Below are positions 6,511 to 16,000 of a stretch of DNA of 64,000 bases, in pieces (the first letter of the stretch is position 1; every line of letters starts with the position of its first letter). A program made the position numbers and the translations under genes. The notes beneath the pieces were generated by a model. It worked only from the letters and a program-made list of their open reading frames with translations. It did not search any database and was not told the DNA's origin. Source of the stretch: Larkinella rosea (GTDB lineage Bacteria > Bacteroidota > Bacteroidia > Cytophagales > Spirosomataceae); NCBI RefSeq assembly GCF_003858635.1, contig NZ_RQJO01000007.1:187941-251940 (forward strand). The letters run 5' to 3'.

Positions 6511-7383
6511 TCACTCCGCCGGTTCCAGATTGATGAGATCGATGACAATCTTCCACTGCCCCTGGCTGTCTTTTTTCCAGACGCGTAAGTAATTTCCCAT
6601 TTGTTTGACGGATTTTCCCGTCACGGTTGCCAGCGTTTGCGCGTTTCCATACACGTACCCCAAATCGCCCGATTCAGCCACAGAAGCATTCAGTGGCAGA
6701 AAACTGAGGGTAACCCGCTGTTTTAGAAGCGAGTCAATCGCGGCCGGTTCGAGGTACGGTTGTTGGTTCATCCGGTATAGCCGGGCTTGAGGAGCCAGAA
6801 ATTGTTTGTAGGTGGCCGCAATACCGGTTTTTTCCAGTGTTTTAATAAACTGATTGTCGAACGCCAGCAGTTCTTCCCGGTTTTTCAGCGAATCCGGACT
6901 GGTTACGCTTCGAATTCCGGTGGCTGCCCGAATCATGTTGGCGGGTGGACTGGGCGGGGCCGGATGTGTAATGCCAATATCGAGGACAAGTCGCCAATTG
7001 TTATTGGGGAATTTTTTCCAGATGGTAACAAAATGGCCAAACGCGTTAGGCTTGTCCGCCAGCGTCTTCGGACGGGATTCCCACGGACCGGTTGTATAAC
7101 CCAGGTCGCCGGACGCCGACACATCGGCCGCAACGGGTTGCCAGGTCAGTTTGCCGGGTGATTCAGGACCGGTTTCGAACAACTCCCGGCCGTTGGTTAC
7201 TTTCCCTTTCGTGAACAAAATACCGTCCGGCGCCAGGTACTGCAAAAAGGCGGTTTTGGTCGTGCTGTCTTTGGCGAGTTGCGCAAATTTCTTTTCCGTA
7301 TTTACCAGTGTCAGCAACGGGCTCTGCGCCATCGCCGAACCGGTTGTCGACAGGAGCAGAATAGCGAAGAAAACGTTTTTCAT
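6511..7383 (-). CDS. Secreted protein with two NTF2-like (SnoaL/DUF4440-type) domains
   Basis: This 290-residue protein has a signal peptide (MKNVFFAILLLSTTGSAMAQ). Two similar NTF2-like halves follow, at about 25-145 and 165-288. Each has an F(L)QYLAP / YKQFLAP helix-turn, an ESGDLGYVYG or SGDLGYTTG strand, and a closing W-K-x-WR/WKIVIDL strand (NNWRLVLDIG and QGQWKIVIDLI). NTF2-like folds are small cone-shaped pockets used by enzymes and binding proteins, so no reaction can be assigned here. The start codon lies 1 nt after the stop of the upstream transporter gene, so the two are almost certainly cotranscribed. A role connected with the transporter is only a guess. Confidence 0.85.
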   Translation of the reverse strand: MKNVFFAILLLSTTGSAMAQSPLLTLVNTEKKFAQLAKDSTTKTAFLQYLAPDGILFTKGKVTNGRELFETGPESPGKLTWQPVAADVSASGDLGYTTGPWESRPKTLADKPNAFGHFVTIWKKFPNNNWRLVLDIGITHPAPPSPPANMIRAATGIRSVTSPDSLKNREELLAFDNQFIKTLEKTGIAATYKQFLAPQARLYRMNQQPYLEPAAIDSLLKQRVTLSFLPLNASVAESGDLGYVYGNAQTLATVTGKSVKQMGNYLRVWKKDSQGQWKIVIDLINLEPAE

Positions 7384-7384
7384 A

Positions 7385-8170
7385 CTACATAAACGAACTC
7401 ATGCTGGATTCGTTTGCCAATTCTTTGGCGTGTTCTTTACCGAGGTAGTTATCGATCAGAAAATGAGCAATATACAGAATTGGCGTCAGTACAACCGCTA
7501 TGAAAAATTTGTAAATATAGTTAACAATCGCGACGGCGATCACCTGCGAAAACGACCAGTTCCCGAAAATATAAAACGCAATCGTCAGGACGACGAAACT
7601 GTCGATGAGCTGCGAAACGAGCGTCGAACCGGTGGCCCGGAGCCAGATTTTGCGGCTGCCGGTGATCTTTTTCAACGATTGAAAAACCGTTGCATCCAGC
7701 AGCTGCCCCACCATAAAAGCCGTGATCGAACCGATGATGATGCCTAATCCCTGCCGGAAAATCATGGCAAACGCATTGTTGATGTTCACCGGATTACCCA
7801 CCGCATCGGTTTTGTTGACATCGAGCCAGAACTGCGCCGGGGGTAATGTGGTCACAAAGAAGATGATCAGGAAACTGTACGCGATAAAACCGGCTGTAAT
7901 GTAAGAAATCTGTTTAACGCCTTTGATTCCGTAATACTCGTTAATGATATCGGAGGTAATGAACACAAACGGCCAGATGACCACTCCCGCCGTCAGGTTG
8001 AAATCCAGCACAAAATCGCCGGGTAAGTGCAGTTGCGCCGGTGCTACTCCTAAAAATGTTTCCGCCGAAAAAATTTTGACACCGATGATTTCAGCCACAA
8101 TCGCATTGGTCAAAAAAACGGCACTTAAAAAGAGGTATAGATTGGTTTTTTTGCTGGTAAAAGAAGCCAT
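7385..8170 (-). CDS. Queuosine precursor transporter (YhhQ/VUT family)
   Basis: Integral inner-membrane protein of 261 residues with about six or seven hydrophobic segments. It matches the YhhQ family, which imports queuosine precursors (preQ0/preQ1 or queuine) for tRNA modification. Diagnostic stretches are TNAIVAEIIGVKIF near the N-terminus, WPFVFITSDIINEYYG (about 65-80) and QLIDSFVVLTIAFYIFGNW (about 187-205). The family is often slightly longer at the N-terminus, so little is missing. It is the first gene of a two-gene unit with the NTF2-like protein, and it follows alaA after an inverted repeat at 8182-8294. No queuosine synthesis gene (queC/D/E/F, tgt) is visible nearby. Confidence 0.92.
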   Translation of the reverse strand: MASFTSKKTNLYLFLSAVFLTNAIVAEIIGVKIFSAETFLGVAPAQLHLPGDFVLDFNLTAGVVIWPFVFITSDIINEYYGIKGVKQISYITAGFIAYSFLIIFFVTTLPPAQFWLDVNKTDAVGNPVNINNAFAMIFRQGLGIIIGSITAFMVGQLLDATVFQSLKKITGSRKIWLRATGSTLVSQLIDSFVVLTIAFYIFGNWSFSQVIAVAIVNYIYKFFIAVVLTPILYIAHFLIDNYLGKEHAKELANESSMSSFM

Positions 8171-8181
8171 ATGGGAGTTAA

Positions 8182-8294
8182 GAGTTAAGAATTAAGAGTT
8201 ATGAATTGTGGTTGCATAAGCCTTGAAAGCATACAATAGCAAGATATAACGCATAACTGACAACTCTTAACTCTTCACTCTTAATTCTTAACTC
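8182..8294. repeat. Inverted repeat of GAGTTAA-type modules (family C)
   Basis: Arms 8182-8199 and 8277-8294 are perfect 18-bp reverse complements. More partly matching modules (GAGTTAA, GAATTAA) flank them from 8175 to 8201 and 8256 to 8276. It fills the gap between alaA and the queuosine precursor transporter, both on the minus strand, and its right arm runs into the alaA stop codon. The arm is made of 7-nt modules, as in the other palindromes of this window, but with different sequence. Confidence 0.8.
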
Positions 8295-9504
8295 ATTTCC
8301 TTCGGCTTTCCAGGAATGCTTCGATGCGGTCGATGGCGGGATTCAGGTCGTCGACGCTGGGGAGGCAGACGATGCGGAAATGGTCGTCGTGAACGTAATT
8401 AAAACCGGTTCCGGCCACCACCAGCACTTTCTGTTCGTCCAGCAGATCATAGACAAAGTCGTCGTCGCTGGCGATATGGAACTGCGACAGATCAATTTTC
8501 GGGAAGATGTACAGCGACCCTTTCGGTTTGACACAACTCAGGCCCGGAATGGCCGTAATCCGGTCATACGCAAGCTGAATCTGCCGGTATAACCGCCCCG
8601 TTGGAATGATCAGATCGTTGATACTTTGATAGCCACCCAGCGCGGTTTGGATCGCGTATTGGGTCGGGACGTTGGCACATAACCGCATGCTGGCCAGCAG
8701 CGTTAATCCTTCGATGTAGGATTTTGCCCGGTGTTTGGCTCCGCTCAGAATCAGCCATCCGCCCCGAAAACCGGCGGCCCGGTAATTCTTCGACAAACCG
8801 CCCATCGAAATGCAGAGCGTGTCTTCCACCATCGTGGCCATTGGGTAATGCACGGCCCCGTCGTACAGGATTTTGTCGTAAATCTCATCCGCAAACAAAA
8901 TCAACTGGTGTTTTTCCGCCAGCCGGGCGATGCCCTGCAAAATGTGTTTGTCGTAAACCGCTCCCGTTGGATTATTCGGATTGATGACCACAATGGCCCG
9001 GGTGCGCGGGGTGATTTTGCTTTCCATGTCTTCCAGATCCGGGTTCCAGCCAGCCTGTTCGTCGCAGAGGTAATGGACCGGTTTTCCGCCCGAAAGCGCC
9101 ACTGACGTTGTCCAGAGCGGATAATCCGGCGAGGGAACCAGCACTTCATCGCCCTCGTTGATGAGGGCCTGCATTGTCAGCAGAATCAATTCGCTAACGC
9201 CGTTGCCGATGAATACATCGTTGATCGCAACGTCCTTGATGCCCAGATTCTGGGTGTAATGCATCACCGCTTTTCGGGCCGCAAACAGACCACGGGAGTC
9301 GGAATAGCCCTGCGCGTTGCGGATATTGAGGATAATATCGTGGACAATTTCGTCGGGCGCGTCGAAACCAAACGGTGCCGGATTCCCGATGTTCAGTTTG
9401 ATAATCGTGTAGCCCTGACTTTCGAGGTCGAGTGCTTTTTCGTAAACCGGTCCACGGATTTCGTAGCGCAAGTCATTGAGCCGGTTGGATTTTAAAAAAT
9501 TCAT
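8293..9504 (-). CDS. alaA: AlaA-type pyridoxal-phosphate aminotransferase
   Basis: Class I/II aminotransferase of 403 residues, very close in length and sequence to E. coli AlaA (405), which makes alanine from pyruvate and glutamate in the cytoplasm. Landmarks are YEIRGPV, KLNIGNPAPFGFDAPDE (36-52), the GNGVSELI stretch (about 101-108), INPNNPTGAVY (174-184), FADEIYDKILYD (204-215) and the PLP lysine Lys239 in GGLSKNYRAAGFRGGW. The frame is open 26 codons further upstream, but that extension is AT-rich and not like the family, so I chose the ATG at 9504. It is the gene downstream of the AT-rich reverse transcriptase insertion and uses the same glutamate pool as gltBD beyond it. Confidence 0.93.
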   Translation of the reverse strand: MNFLKSNRLNDLRYEIRGPVYEKALDLESQGYTIIKLNIGNPAPFGFDAPDEIVHDIILNIRNAQGYSDSRGLFAARKAVMHYTQNLGIKDVAINDVFIGNGVSELILLTMQALINEGDEVLVPSPDYPLWTTSVALSGGKPVHYLCDEQAGWNPDLEDMESKITPRTRAIVVINPNNPTGAVYDKHILQGIARLAEKHQLILFADEIYDKILYDGAVHYPMATMVEDTLCISMGGLSKNYRAAGFRGGWLILSGAKHRAKSYIEGLTLLASMRLCANVPTQYAIQTALGGYQSINDLIIPTGRLYRQIQLAYDRITAIPGLSCVKPKGSLYIFPKIDLSQFHIASDDDFVYDLLDEQKVLVVAGTGFNYVHDDHFRIVCLPSVDDLNPAIDRIEAFLESRRK

Positions 9505-9562
9505 ACTTGGGTAATTAGAATAAATTGTGTAAAGGTGTGAAAAATAATATATAAAACTTTTT

Positions 9563-11380
9563 TCAAATTTCATACTGAACATAAAGCCATTTTTTGTAGT
9601 ATGGGTCAGATATAAGACTTTTTATTCTATTTATTATTGAAGAATTTGTGGCAATATCTGTAGAATTTAAAACGGAACATAAAACTAAAAAACGCGATAT
9701 TGAATAAGTTGGATTGAAATTTTTGTCTCCAAGTAAATACATTTTTAAAGAATTATCCAACTTAGAGATACCACTGAATTTTATGATTGTGTTAGCTAAA
9801 GGGACTGTATTCGAAATGCCTGAATCTATTTGAACTTGAAGTAATTGTTCTGTTTTAGGTTTTTCAGAAGTATAAGTTCTTGTTAATATTGCAGTAACCT
9901 GTCTCCTTAAAAATGGTGAATTCTGCCATCTATTCTGAAATTTAGTAACGAATTCTATCAACTTCTTTGGATCATTATACTTAGCTTTAAACCAAAATAG
10001 GCAATAATAATCAAAATCTGTATTTCTGTTAAAAGTTAGTTGTGTTAAATTTCTTTCAAAATTATCCAGAAAAATGCTTGATAATCTAGTGATAGGTATT
10101 TTCCAATCTACAACTAAATGACTTAATTGACTAAGTGATATGTCATCAAATATTGGTAGTGAATTTAAAATATTTAATATTATTCTTGCTGATTTATTAT
10201 TATAACCAATACTTTTAAGATAATATAAAAGAGAAGGCCTGAGGACAGGGATTTCAAGATATAGTCTATCAACAGAATTTAATAGTAAAATTGATTTTAT
10301 TCGAGCTAAATTATTAATTAATCTTTTAGCAACCTTATCCCAATATTTAGGCTGTTGGTCTTTTAAGTGCGATCTCAATAGTGACATTAGATCTTTTCCT
10401 ATACTTAATCTTTCAGTTTCGTCGGCGGGTTCAATTTTGTCATATGCATCTAAGATTCTGTTTTTATCGATTAATAAATTATAATGACCTTCGTCATGAT
10501 TGAATATTGCTGTTTTAGCAATATTTAAAGCTAGACCTCGACTTTTTAAAATATCTGAAATACAACTAATTATCTCCGTAGCTTCCTTTTTACTGTCAGC
10601 ACCTAATGTTATATCATCCATCCATCTTGTAAAACAGTTTGAAGTTTTTTCAGATAATACTTCATCTACTTCAAATAGAAAGCTATGTGCTAGAAGACGA
10701 ATTGCTTCTGTATCAGAAGTAGGTAGGCCTCTATGTGAATATGGAAGATAATCAGGTTGCCAAGAAATATTCTCTACAACCTTAAATAAAACATCAATTA
10801 ATGCTTCATCAATTGGGGCAAGAGAGGAAAAATATTTTTTTAATTCACGAATATCTATTGAATCGTAATAATTTGATAGATCTGTTGTTACAATAAATGC
10901 TTTACTATTACTGAAATTATAAATCTGTGTTTGCATTTCCTTCCATTGTTCTAAACGATTTAAACCGTAATCGTCAAAATCATGAGGATGTTTTATATTA
11001 TGTTTGTCTCTTGAATAATAAGCATTTTTTGAAGGCTGTTTTGATAATATTTTTTCAGAAATGTTATCTACAATAGTTTGTACTATAAGTGCATCCACTG
11101 GTTGAGGAACGATCATGTGCCTACAAATTCCATACTTCTTCTCTACTCTATAAATCAGCGGATTTGAGACCCGATAATTGCCGCTTAATATTTCATCTCT
11201 TATAGCTGAAGCTCGATCATTGATACTATTATTGAAATCGTAGTAATCAAAAATGTCCTTAATATCCGATTTTCTTAATTTGCCCCTAACAATATTTTTC
11301 CACGTGTCGGCGATTTTCTTTTTTTCAAAGATGTTGGACAGAGCTTTACGCCTTAGTCTGATAAACCTTTCTGTGAACAT
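9563..11380 (-). CDS. Stand-alone reverse transcriptase with long C-terminal extension (UG/Abi-like, defence candidate)
   Basis: RNA-directed DNA polymerase of 605 residues. Residues about 55-110 look like the RT0/motif 1 region (IRDEILSGNY, RHMIVPQPVDALIVQTI). Motif A is TTDLSNYYDSID with Asp167. RGLPTSDTEAIRLLA (217-231) corresponds to the GxPQG motif B region. The catalytic pair is Asp255-Asp256 in TRWMDDITLG; tryptophan-methionine replaces the usual YA/YV before DD. LALNIAKT (283-290) is motif D. About 300 residues after the palm and fingers are leucine/isoleucine-rich and helical, without the maturase (X) or HNH domains of group II introns and without an msr/msd-like RNA in the short flanks. 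This layout fits the Abi/unknown-group reverse transcriptases linked to phage defence, but I cannot name the subgroup. The gene is strongly AT-rich against its neighbours and inserted between alaA and gltD, with its own promoter, so recent transfer is likely. Confidence 0.88.
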   Translation of the reverse strand: MFTERFIRLRRKALSNIFEKKKIADTWKNIVRGKLRKSDIKDIFDYYDFNNSINDRASAIRDEILSGNYRVSNPLIYRVEKKYGICRHMIVPQPVDALIVQTIVDNISEKILSKQPSKNAYYSRDKHNIKHPHDFDDYGLNRLEQWKEMQTQIYNFSNSKAFIVTTDLSNYYDSIDIRELKKYFSSLAPIDEALIDVLFKVVENISWQPDYLPYSHRGLPTSDTEAIRLLAHSFLFEVDEVLSEKTSNCFTRWMDDITLGADSKKEATEIISCISDILKSRGLALNIAKTAIFNHDEGHYNLLIDKNRILDAYDKIEPADETERLSIGKDLMSLLRSHLKDQQPKYWDKVAKRLINNLARIKSILLLNSVDRLYLEIPVLRPSLLYYLKSIGYNNKSARIILNILNSLPIFDDISLSQLSHLVVDWKIPITRLSSIFLDNFERNLTQLTFNRNTDFDYYCLFWFKAKYNDPKKLIEFVTKFQNRWQNSPFLRRQVTAILTRTYTSEKPKTEQLLQVQIDSGISNTVPLANTIIKFSGISKLDNSLKMYLLGDKNFNPTYSISRFLVLCSVLNSTDIATNSSIINRIKSLISDPYYKKWLYVQYEI

Positions 11381-11400
11381 TGGATCCTTATTTTAACTAG

Positions 11401-11408
11401 CAAAGGTA
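11401..11408 (-). promoter_or_regulatory. Promoter -7 element of the reverse transcriptase gene
   Basis: Read on the minus strand, 11408-11401 is TACCTTTG, an exact TAnnTTTG match, 20 nt before the reverse transcriptase ATG. A TTTG about 25 nt further upstream lies in the gltD terminator loop and could act as a loose -33 element. The untranslated leader would be only about 15 nt. Confidence 0.6.
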
Positions 11409-11446
11409 CAAAAAAGAAAAAGCCGCCGGTCGTCAAACCGGCGGCT
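11405..11446 (-). terminator. Rho-independent terminator of gltD
   Basis: A perfect 10-bp GC-rich stem (AGCCGCCGGT at 11421-11430 with 11437-11446), a 6-nt loop, and on the minus strand a T-rich tail (11420 to about 11409). It ends gltBD transcription and insulates the reverse transcriptase gene beyond it. Confidence 0.9.
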
Positions 11447-11467
11447 CTATGGTTAGTTTTCCGTGGG

Positions 11468-12955
11468 TCAGACTGTCGCAAACATCGATTTGGCTTTCGC
11501 TTCCAGCTGGCTGTCACCCATCAGGAAGATATCGGCCGCTCGCGCGGCTTCCCGACCTTCTGAAATGGCCCAAACGACCAGTGACTGTCCCCGGCGCATA
11601 TCCCCGGCAGCAAATACCTTCGGATTGCTTGTTGTCTGATAATTAACGGCTTTCACATTACCGCGTTCGTATTCGAGCTCCAGCGCGTCGAGCAGGCCTT
11701 CCTGTTGCGGATTCAAAAAACCGGCAGCCAGCAGCGCCAGTTCGCACGGTACATCACGTTCCGAACCGGGCACTTCCACCATTTTCATTTTGCCGTCCAC
11801 GGTTTGCCAGTCCAGATCGACGATGCGCAGGGCTTTCAGGTTGCCGTTTTCATCACCGATAAACGCTTTCGTATTGATCGACCATTGCCGTTCGCAACCT
11901 TCCTCGTGCGAGGTCGACGTCCGCAGCATCATCGGCCAGTTCGGCCAGGGCGTGCTTTCGGCGCGTTCGGCGGGTGGCATCGGCATCAATTCAATCTGGG
12001 TTACGGATTTGGCCCCGTGGCGGTTTGAGGTACCGACGCAGTCAGAACCCGTATCACCCCCGCCAATGACGAAGACATTTTTGCCGGTGGCCAGAATTTC
12101 GCCGTTTTCGTATTTTGCGCCCCGGTGGTCGACTACAACCGGACGTTCGGCCACGCGTTTGTTTTGCTGGCTTAGAAATTCCATCGCAAAGTGAACGCCC
12201 TTCAGTTCGCGCCCGGGAATAGGCAGGTCGCGCGGAACCGTAGAACCGCCCGTCAGCAAAATGACGTCGAAGTCGGCCAGCAATTCCTTGGCTTTGATGT
12301 GTTCACCGACATTGACCCCGGTTTTGAAGGTGATGCCTTCGGCTTCCATCACCGACAGCCGACGGTCGATCACCCATTTTTCCAGCTTGAAATCGGGAAT
12401 GCCGTAGCGCAGCAAACCGCCAATCTGGTCGGCACGTTCAAAAACCGTGACCGTGTGACCGGCTTTGTTCAACTGCGCAGCCGCAGCCAGTCCGGCCGGC
12501 CCCGAGCCCACAATGGCAGCGGTTTTTCCCGTCCGTTTAATGGTTTTTGCCGGTTGAACTATGCCTTTGGCAAAAGCCGCTTCAATGATTGATTTTTCGA
12601 TGAATTCGATGGCGACGGGCGGTTTATTGATGCCCAGTACGCACGACGATTCGCAGGGGGCGGGGCAGATCCGGCCCGTAAATTCCGGGAAATTGTTGGT
12701 CGACGCCAGAATTTCGTAGGCGTATTCCCAGTTCTGTTCGTAAACGGCGTCGTTGAATTCCGGAATGATATTGCCCAGTGGGCAACCGTTGTGGCAGAAC
12801 GGAATCCCACAATCCATGCAGCGAGCCGCCTGTTTCTGGGTGTCTTCCACCACAAACGGCTGTTCGATTTCCTTGTAATCATGAAGCCGCTGCTGAACGT
12901 CGCGCTTTTTAGGCAGTTCGCGGGTGAATTCTAAAAATCCAGTGGGTTTTCCCAT
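11468..12955 (-). CDS. gltD: Glutamate synthase (NADPH) small subunit
   Basis: Cytoplasmic GOGAT beta subunit of 495 residues, the usual length. It passes electrons from NAD(P)H through FAD and Fe-S clusters to the large subunit. The N-terminal cysteine-rich region carries the cluster ligands (ARCMDCGIPFCHNGCPLGN at about 44-62, and GRICPAPCESSCVLG at about 94-108). The FAD dinucleotide site is AAIVGSGPAGLAAAAQLNKA (about 148-167), and the NAD(P)H site is FVIGGGDTGSDCVGTSNRHGA. The C-terminal part has FAAGDMRRGQSLVVWAI. It lies 98 nt downstream of gltB on the same strand and ends at a strong terminator. Confidence 0.96.
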   Translation of the reverse strand: MGKPTGFLEFTRELPKKRDVQQRLHDYKEIEQPFVVEDTQKQAARCMDCGIPFCHNGCPLGNIIPEFNDAVYEQNWEYAYEILASTNNFPEFTGRICPAPCESSCVLGINKPPVAIEFIEKSIIEAAFAKGIVQPAKTIKRTGKTAAIVGSGPAGLAAAAQLNKAGHTVTVFERADQIGGLLRYGIPDFKLEKWVIDRRLSVMEAEGITFKTGVNVGEHIKAKELLADFDVILLTGGSTVPRDLPIPGRELKGVHFAMEFLSQQNKRVAERPVVVDHRGAKYENGEILATGKNVFVIGGGDTGSDCVGTSNRHGAKSVTQIELMPMPPAERAESTPWPNWPMMLRTSTSHEEGCERQWSINTKAFIGDENGNLKALRIVDLDWQTVDGKMKMVEVPGSERDVPCELALLAAGFLNPQQEGLLDALELEYERGNVKAVNYQTTSNPKVFAAGDMRRGQSLVVWAISEGREAARAADIFLMGDSQLEAKAKSMFATV

Positions 12956-13007
12956 GTAGATTAAAGCGTATACGGTTTTTCAAATACTACAGTGAGGCAA
13001 TGTCAAT

Positions 13008-13049
13008 CCCGTTTTCTTCGTGATTTAGCAAAATTACAAAGAAAACGGG
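13008..13049 (-). promoter_or_regulatory. Hairpin with internal promoter-like element between gltB and gltD
   Basis: Arms 13008-13018 and 13039-13049 are perfect 11-bp reverse complements (CCCGTTTTCTT/AAGAAAACGGG). On the minus strand the loop contains TAATTTTG (13036-13029), which matches the TAnnTTTG -7 consensus. It may allow separate gltD transcription or set the gltB:gltD ratio. There is no T-run, so it is not a normal terminator. Confidence 0.45.
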
Positions 13050-13053
13050 TTGA

Positions 13054-16000
13054 TTAGCCGTGAGCTACATCGACTACGATGTCCTGGTACACCACATTTT
13101 TGTCGCGGATCTGATCGGCGAGCGAAATGCCGCGACCGGCCAGGGCCTTGCGGAAATCGCTCGGCATTACCTTCACAAATTGTTTAATAAGGTTGTCCCA
13201 ATCCTGGATCAGTTGCAGAGCGACGTTGCTGGTCGTATACTGGAAGTGTTTTTCGACAAATTCCTTCACGATCGACACGTCTTCGTCGTCCAGTTTTTCG
13301 AGGGTAACCATTTCGCCGTTGACTTTCGAGGCAAAATCACCTTCCTGATCCCAGACGTAAGCGACACCACCGGACATACCGGCCGCGAAATTCCGTCCGA
13401 CAGAACCCAGAATAACCACCAGACCGCCCGTCATGTATTCCAGGCCGTGATCACCGACGCCTTCGACCACCACTTTGGCTCCGGAATTCCGGACACAGAA
13501 CCGCTCACCCGCCATACCACGGATGTAAGCTTCACCGGAGGTTGCGCCGTAGAACGATACGTTCCCAACAATGCTGTTTTCTTCCGGTTTGAACGGTGCC
13601 ATGCGATCGGGATACACGATTAATTGCGCTCCGCAGAGACCTTTGCCGAAATAATCGTTGGCGTCGCCTTCCAGTTCAAGTTTGATACCGTGGGTGTTAA
13701 ACGCACCGAAGCTCTGACCAGCGGTTCCCCGGAATTTGAAGTGAATCGTACCTTCGGGTAAACCTTTTCCGGCGTATACTTTGGAGATTTCGTTCGATAA
13801 AACCGTACCAACCGCCCGGTTCAGGTTGATGATCGGGTATTCGGCATACACCGATTCACCGGTTTCAATCGCTGGTTTACCAACTTTGAGGAGTTCCCAA
13901 TCCAGAATGTCGGTCATGCCGTGATCCTGATCTTCCTGCTTGTAAAATGCGACGTCCAGGTTGCTGCTGTCTTTGAACAAAACCGCACCCAGATCGACGT
14001 GCTCGTATTTCCAGTGCTTGATATCTTTCCGCATTTCGAGCATCTGCGACTGACCAACCATTTCGTTGATTGTCCGGAAACCAAGTTCCGCCATAATCTC
14101 GCGCAGTTCGGTCGCCAGGAACGTAAACATATTTACAACGTGTTCCGGTTTTCCGCTGAACAACGCCCGCAGATCCTTGTTCTGGGTCGCAACACCGACC
14201 GGGCAGGTATTGAGGTGACATTTCCGCATCATGATACAGCCCACGGTGACCAGCGCAGCCGTAGCCACACCAAATTCTTCGGCCCCCAGCAGTGCGGCAA
14301 TCGCCAGGTCGCGGCCGGTCCGGATTTGTCCGTCGGTTTGCACCGTTACGCGTCCGCGCAGTTTGTTGCGAACCAGTGTCTGATGTGTTTCGGCCAGCCC
14401 AAGTTCCCAGGGCAAACCGGCGTGGCGGATCGAACTCAGCGGTGACGCGCCGGTTCCGCCGTCATGTCCCGAAATCAGGATGTGGTCGGCGTGGGCTTTG
14501 GCAACCCCGGCTGCAATCGTTCCAACCCCGGCTTCCGACACCAGTTTGACACTGATGCGGGCCGCCCGGTTGGCATTTTTGAGGTCGAAGATCAACTGCG
14601 CCAAATCCTCGATCGAATAAATATCGTGGTGGGGTGGGGGCGAAATCAACCCCACGCCCGGTGTTGAATGGCGGGTACGACCAATCCAGTCGTCGACTTT
14701 GTGACCGGGCAACTGACCTCCTTCACCGGGCTTGGCACCCTGCGCCATTTTGATTTGCAGTTCGCGGGCGTTCGTCAAATAATGACTGGTGACACCAAAC
14801 CGACCCGAAGCCACCTGTTTGATGCCCGAATTCATGTTATCACCGTTGGGCAGCAACGTATAGCGCAGTTCGTCTTCACCCCCTTCGCCAGAATTGCTTT
14901 TGCCGCCGATGCGGTTCATGGCAATCGCCAGGGTGGTGTGGGCTTCCCACGAAATCGAACCAAACGACATGGCGCCGGTCGCAAACCGGGTGAAAATACT
15001 TTCGATCGGCTCCACCTCTTCAATCGGAACCGGTGTGCCTTTCTTGAATTTCATCAAGCCGCGTAGCGTCAGGGCTTTACGGGTCTGATCGTCGATCAGG
15101 TTGGCGTATTTTTTGTAAATCTGGTAGTCGTTCTTCCGCGTTGCCTGCTGGAGCAGGTGAATCGTGTCGGGGGTGAAAATATGCGCTTCCCCGCGTTGTT
15201 TCCATTGGTACACCCCACCCACTTCCAGTCGGGGCGTCAGCACGTTGTTTTCGGGGAATGCCCGGCGGTGACGCACCAGAATCTCGCGGCCGATCTGCTC
15301 CAGACCCATCCCGCCGATTCGGGAAATCGTACCCGTAAAATAATGATCAACTACCTCCTTGTTCAAACCCAGGCACTCGAAAATCATGGCACCCTGGTAC
15401 GACTGAAGCGTTGAAATGCCCATTTTCGAGAAGATCTTGAGCAATTCCTTGTTGACCGCTTTGATGTAATTCTGATGCAGTTTTTCGACCGGATAGTCGG
15501 ATTGAATCAGGCCGTGTTCCTTCATGTCCGTAATGGTTTCGAAGGCCATGTACGGGTTAATACCCGAGGCACCGTAACCAATCAGGGTCGCGTAATGGTG
15601 CGTTTCCCACACGTCACCGGCTTCGACCAGAATACCCACTTTTCCGCGCAATCCCTGACGAATCAGGTGATGGTGAATGGCCGAGGTCGCCAGCAGCGAT
15701 GGAATTGGGGCGTGGTCAGAATCGATGGCCCGGTCGGACAGGATGATGATTTCAAAACCGTCATCGATGGCGTCTTCCGCGTAGCGACAAATGCGCTCCA
15801 GTGCACGTTCGAGACTGGTTCCATTGTCGGCCCGGAAATACGTATTGATGGTTTTGGCCTGGAAGTGGTTTTTATCCACAAACCGCAACTTATCGAACTC
15901 TTCGATGGTCAGAACCGGTTGCGTCAGCTCAATCTGTCGGCAATGATCCGGTTTTTCTTCGAGCAAATTGCCCGTGGCACCTACGAACGAAATCAGCGAC

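Follow-up and report, generated by a model that had tools for sequence, protein, structure and literature searches.

Why does a lone, AT-rich reverse transcriptase (RT) gene stand between gltD and alaA in Larkinella rosea, and what could its product do? We addressed this question in a 64,000-nucleotide stretch of the L. rosea genome (contig NZ_RQJO01000007.1, positions 187,941 to 251,940; hereafter the window), where the gene occupies positions 9563..11380 of the minus strand, on which all window features described below also lie. A preliminary description, made from the letters of the window alone, had proposed it as a candidate phage-defence gene. Judged by its sequence, the gene is a member of the UG/Abi (DRT) reverse transcriptases, group UG13a, a catalogued, little-studied and suspected anti-phage family. 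We consider it probable, at roughly 0.6, that it is an acquired single gene encoding a template-free, self-primed DNA polymerase that would act by abortive infection. The observations behind this reading are the family membership, the intact catalytic motif, the absence of the gene from congeners, its lone-gene context and the lack of structured RNA in its flanks.

Assignment to group UG13a and the catalytic core

The gene is an intact, ATG-initiated open reading frame (ORF) encoding 605 amino acids, and its G+C content is 0.295 compared to 0.502 for the whole window, in agreement with the AT-richness described earlier. The sequence contains all the landmarks previously listed, namely TDLSNYYDSID, RWMDD at residues 252-256 and LALNIAKT. 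The D167 codon of motif A (TDLSNYYDSID, with T166-D167) lies at 10880..10882 and the RWMDD of motif C at 10613..10627. D167, D255 and D256, the catalytic aspartates of RTs, are unchanged in an alignment of the five intact UG13a members, and R252 and M254 are likewise invariant among them. In Pfam, RVT_1 covered residues 144-299 (E 7.6e-11, 42.5 bits at a cut-off of 29.6), and the sole further match, Dicers_N, remained below its cut-off. A search of the L. rosea genome with RVT_1, in which five candidates were scored, returned one match, which was this RT.

The family assignment relies on the PADLOC profile RT_UG13a (PDLC03749, filed under DRT), which the protein matched with 690 bits over residues 1-600, corresponding to positions 1-587 of the 589 in the profile. 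Among the best 25 that we viewed of the 58 PADLOC profiles matching at E ≤ 1, the runner-up was RT_UG21 (PDLC03759) with 106.7 bits. This full-length match in a profile search against RT groups bears out the earlier placement of the protein among RTs of the Abi/UG type. All NCBIfam matches fell below their cut-offs; the best was a group II RT profile with 57.1 bits. The latter match and PDB structures of group II or retron RTs that resemble the RT part might suggest a remnant of a group II intron RT or a retron RT. However, that profile has a cut-off of 300 bits, Pfam detected no maturase domain after the RT palm, as had been described, no intron or other Rfam RNA rose above chance, and flanks of 87 and 58 nt leave no room for an msr-msd RNA. 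Because of the full-length UG13a match, such an origin would require the profile to be misfiled; on the profile scores and the missing RNA we ruled it out and give it practically no weight.

Four relatives (L034, L035, L030 and L033), originating from two genomes of the same phylum as the window, Leptospira and Azospirillum, also had RT_UG13a as their top PADLOC profile (635-716 bits). The window protein is 26% identical to the Azospirillum protein (L033) and 50, 44 and 45% identical to the three others; with its closest intact members being 44-50% identical, it displays no defining difference from the RT_UG13a profile. Relationships among UG groups were judged from a table of pairwise identities over residues 55-300 rather than from a tree. 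In this region six UG13a members share 33-59% identity and fall into two groups, one comprising Bacteroidota and Leptospira (51-59%) and the other two Alphaproteobacteria (57%), whereas six other RTs (matches to the UG21 profile and RTs labelled by eye as UG17-like and DGR-like) are 17-28% identical to UG13a members. The UG21 profile aligned to UG13a with an hhalign probability of 98.8 over residues 27-445, an alignment that stops short of the C-terminal tail, and the two UG21-like RTs compared are 20 and 24% identical to UG13a over residues 55-300.

Motif C had been regarded as atypical and as perhaps marking an unusual, unstudied subgroup. Neither claim held. RWMDD occurs in 4/6 UG13a members, with RFMDD and RYMDD in one each; a DGR-like RT reads FTRWMDD, and RYVDD is reported for AbiA (PMC11077055). 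Since a WMDD-type motif is usual in UG13a, for which a PADLOC profile already exists, it gives no sign of a new subgroup. An open-licence literature search, the coverage of which did not extend to the founding UG/Abi paper, found no paper that names UG13 or UG13a and no experiment on it. What is new here is thus an intact member with a clear insertion history, the group itself being already catalogued and apparently unstudied.

Insertion between gltD and alaA

The RT gene is bordered on the left by gltD (11468..12955), the stop of which at 11468 lies 87 nt from the RT gene, and on the right by alaA (8293..9504), which starts 58 nt from it if the ATG at 9504 is taken, as here; a longer ORF call uses an upstream in-frame start. 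The ORFs and terminator prediction confirmed the described location between the gltD terminator and alaA, together with both flank lengths. alaA is present in 9/9 genomes of the genus, and gltD was found inside the examined alaA flank in 7/8 congeners. The two genes directly adjoin each other in seven of the eight congeners, the eighth having a different lone gene between them. In the window, the gltD stop and the alaA start are 1963 nt apart. Among seven congeners measured, the distance is 87-206 nt in six and 1405 nt in one (G005); in congener G002 it was read by eye as about 93 nt. The gene in the G005 gap (L036:5589-6767) encodes 392 amino acids and has no Pfam or PADLOC match. The presence of another lone gene there suggests that single genes may have entered this junction more than once. 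In the congener G007 (L025/L045), an imperfect palindrome within the 206-nt gap, CCCCTAAATCCCCTGAAGGGGACTT ... AAGTCCCCTTCAGGGGATTTAGGGG, resembles a small REP-like hairpin element.

The UG13a gene was missing from 8/8 congeners when searched with the UG13a profile at E ≤ 0.001, and so it is not conserved at this site, in line with the patchy distribution anticipated for a mobile defence gene. This absence and the near-empty sites in congeners indicate acquisition in the L. rosea lineage, and the sequence comparison makes it most likely that the RT gene is a horizontally acquired, foreign single gene. The junction itself looks genus-specific, because outside the genus none of 22 loci, two of which covered less sequence, had gltD within 1.5 kb of alaA. 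A target-site duplication is possible: the stretches flanking the RT gene share a T-run and ACCTTT, a score that Markov-resampled sequences equalled in 621 of 2000 trials, and both sides resemble the empty site of the closest congener (raw scores 16 and 13, with no significance attached).

The comparison with congeners also bears on how the gene may be transcribed. In 7/7 congeners measured, alaA is preceded by TAnnTTTG, which we take to be the Bacteroidota -7 element. In the window, the gltD terminator hairpin (11419..11448) is followed by TACCTTTG (11401..11408) and then by the RT gene, so that the element has the position of the alaA promoter in congeners and now lies ahead of the RT gene. 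Ahead of alaA, where congeners read TAnnTTTG, the window has CACCTTTA (9530..9537). The element described as the gene's own promoter is present, but its position does not bear out the word "own": the RT promoter may have been captured from alaA rather than brought in. It follows from this position that the RT may use the alaA promoter and that alaA may need read-through, and no terminator-like site was predicted in the RT-alaA gap. Two sigma-70-like sites on the minus strand, predicted at 9573-9544, argue against this reading; however, Bacteroidota promoters are outside the reach of the scan, and chance sites are frequent in the region (17 sites found versus 9.7 expected).

This arrangement raises the alternative that the gene has no function in defence, being instead either a passenger or connected with alaA in metabolism or regulation, perhaps through a shared transcript. 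The RT gene stands directly behind the old alaA promoter position with no predicted terminator-like site before alaA, and the two neighbours in the window that were searched, alaA and the gene beyond it, both lack a PADLOC match. The same is true of three neighbours of the RT in Sinorhizobium and of a SLOG-family neighbour in locus L001, and these null results together weigh against a role in defence. At the same time, an intact frame with intact catalytic residues is not what a passenger would lead one to expect, and UG13a genes in other genomes have unrelated neighbours and lie near relaxase, integrase, phage-plasmid or toxin-antitoxin genes. We therefore regard a passenger or alaA-linked gene as quite improbable.

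Distribution and gene context of UG13a

UG13a is rare, and its members, dispersed across phyla, are solitary AT-rich genes with no partner in common, several of them on mobile DNA. At E ≤ 0.001, the UG13a profile matched 12 of 59 genomes including that of L. rosea, which alone had a full-length match (5.8e-207); the best of the other 11 was partial (5.3e-13). This limit is loose, as 3 of 14 control genomes also matched. At E ≤ 1e-40, matches were confined to 3 of 395 genomes of the phylum, L. rosea included, and to none of the 14 controls. In the families of the two other positive genomes, 1/5 and 1/86 genomes matched, both being already-known copies. A tblastn search of plasmids returned seven records (three from Leptospira weilii, three from Sinorhizobium and one from Azospirillum), and a one-query scan of genome contigs yielded one relative, in a Rikenellaceae metagenome-assembled genome. 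Phage records gave no UG13a match with two query sequences, and six scans of viral contigs detected three distant RTs instead of UG13a. One of these (L039, 5317-7017) lies beside a protein (6998-7603) read by eye as SLATT, a DRT10/UG17-like arrangement; of the two others, L040 looks DGR-like. In a genome of the same family (G028), four RT genes with open frames of 427 residues and near-equal scores were seen, possibly a multiplied group II intron.

In 6/6 loci the G+C content of the UG13a gene was below that of its surroundings, and no partner gene was common to the loci examined. In L001 the RT, split over two frames, lies near tRNA-Ser on an element with a Mob_Pre relaxase. L030 is a Leptospira plasmid that carries a portal protein; its RT has an IS481 transposase nearby and lies 162 nt behind a protein annotated as a restriction endonuclease (Mrr_cat 20.7 bits, cut-off 21). 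The same RT-endonuclease stretch, with a 100% identical RT, occurs on three Leptospira weilii plasmids (L030, L031 and L077), which come from two strains, one of them harbouring two of the plasmids. Toxin-antitoxin genes are found 5-7 kb from the RT on another Leptospira plasmid. The Sinorhizobium locus (L032) has a phage-type integrase ORF at tRNA-Met and a resolvase. In Azospirillum (L033), the RT is placed between a 3-demethylubiquinone methyltransferase-like gene and an ABC transporter gene, with gaps of 184 and 65 nt, and in L034 and L035 it adjoins genes of the carboxylase type and the TPR type, the contig ending on the other side.

Template, primer and comparison with known systems

The preliminary description had judged the flanks too short for a retron-like msr-msd RNA, and folding agreed with this: the upstream 87 nt fold only as the gltD terminator (z -3.79) and the downstream 58 nt gave no structure. 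When the locus was scanned in 37 windows of 150 nt, each compared with 60 shuffles, none was outstanding (lowest z -1.97 in sense and -2.69 in antisense orientation). Rfam at E ≤ 1 over positions 7000-14000 returned two chance-like matches, both outside the RT gene and far under their gathering scores. Neither a retron RNA nor an adjacent structured noncoding RNA template of the DRT2/9/10 kind was thus found in the flanks or along the gene. The enzyme could nevertheless be an RNA-templated DRT similar to DRT2, DRT9 and DRT10; its template might then be part of the RT mRNA itself, or come from an adjacent gene or another site in the genome. Class 2 DRTs are reported to copy noncoding RNA (PMC13174585; PMC12632851), and RNA-templated DRT9 also has C-terminal priming tyrosines (PMC12483538). 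However, the folding and Rfam results speak against a template at this locus, and the Azospirillum copy, with its similarly short gaps, against one in the flanks. On this balance we consider an RNA-templated enzyme unlikely.

The part of the protein behind the RT palm, residues 296-605 (9566..10495), consists of about 300 residues that are helical by prediction, as described before. In a model of moderate confidence, this half is all helical, and its best structural matches are HEAT/ARM solenoids; no Abi or DRT chain was among the 50 matches listed. With the full-length model, which is poor, Foldseek predictably gave no match at E ≤ 0.001. We suggest with moderate confidence that the C-terminal half forms a HEAT-like alpha-solenoid resembling that of class 1 Abi/UG polymerases, for which a C-terminal alpha-helical HEAT-like (alphaRep) domain has been reported (PMC13174585).

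A candidate primer is located at the end of this half. The codons of Y594 and Y595 (9596..9601) belong to a D-x-[YF]-[YF] motif found in 7/7 aligned members; Tyr594 and Tyr595 are each present in six of the seven, at least one tyrosine is present in all seven, and Y603 occurs in 5/7. Five tyrosines (Y69, Y172, Y211, Y468 and Y595) are invariant in the five intact UG13a sequences. The Y594/Y595 pair is perhaps the UG13a primer. Priming residues reported for other systems include Y666 of 667 residues in DRT3b (PMC13174585), Y298/Y303 in AbiA (PMC11077055) and S402 in DRT1 (PMC13275509), and C-terminal tyrosines have been implicated in priming by DRT9 (PMC12483538). An N-terminal priming tyrosine like that of AbiK was not favoured, as positions 46/47 read Y/H and Y/F in four close members.

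In the template-free, self-primed reading that we prefer, the protein would have a two-lobe plan, with an RT-like polymerase in the N-terminal half and the putative solenoid in the C-terminal half. It would stay quiet until phage infection, then polymerise DNA from deoxynucleoside triphosphates without a nucleic-acid template, starting at a tyrosine hydroxyl of its own chain, for which Y594/Y595 are the best candidates; the protein-DNA product would end in abortive infection. In a bolder version, which we put forward tentatively and would not bet on, UG13a would be a complete, RNA-free, one-gene immune polymerase whose active site sets the composition of the DNA, whose product is held covalently on the Y594/Y595 tail, and which spreads as a solitary gene lacking mobility functions and in this case takes the alaA promoter. 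If so, UG13a would represent a separate type of DRT that makes a novel DNA product, the DRT products reported so far including random or semirandom DNA, poly-dA, tandem repeats, a de novo gene and protein-templated repeats. The window copy, intact and consisting of one gene with sharp borders, near-empty sites in relatives and no adjacent RNA found, offers a compact test case.

Among characterised systems, AbiK and DRT3b are comparable to UG13a in the combination of an RT-like half with a (predicted) helical solenoid half, and no structured flanking RNA was found for UG13a. AbiK, in which a helical solenoid half is reported beside the RT-like half, primes from Y44 (PMC9508834), whereas this tyrosine has no conserved counterpart in UG13a. 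DRT3b is reported to work with DRT3a and a noncoding RNA; in contrast, UG13a stands alone in the loci examined. DRT9 (UG28, class 2) is described as requiring a structured noncoding RNA template (PMC12483538), and none was found beside the UG13a gene; what UG13a has in common with DRT9 is the conserved tyrosine pair in the C-terminal tail.
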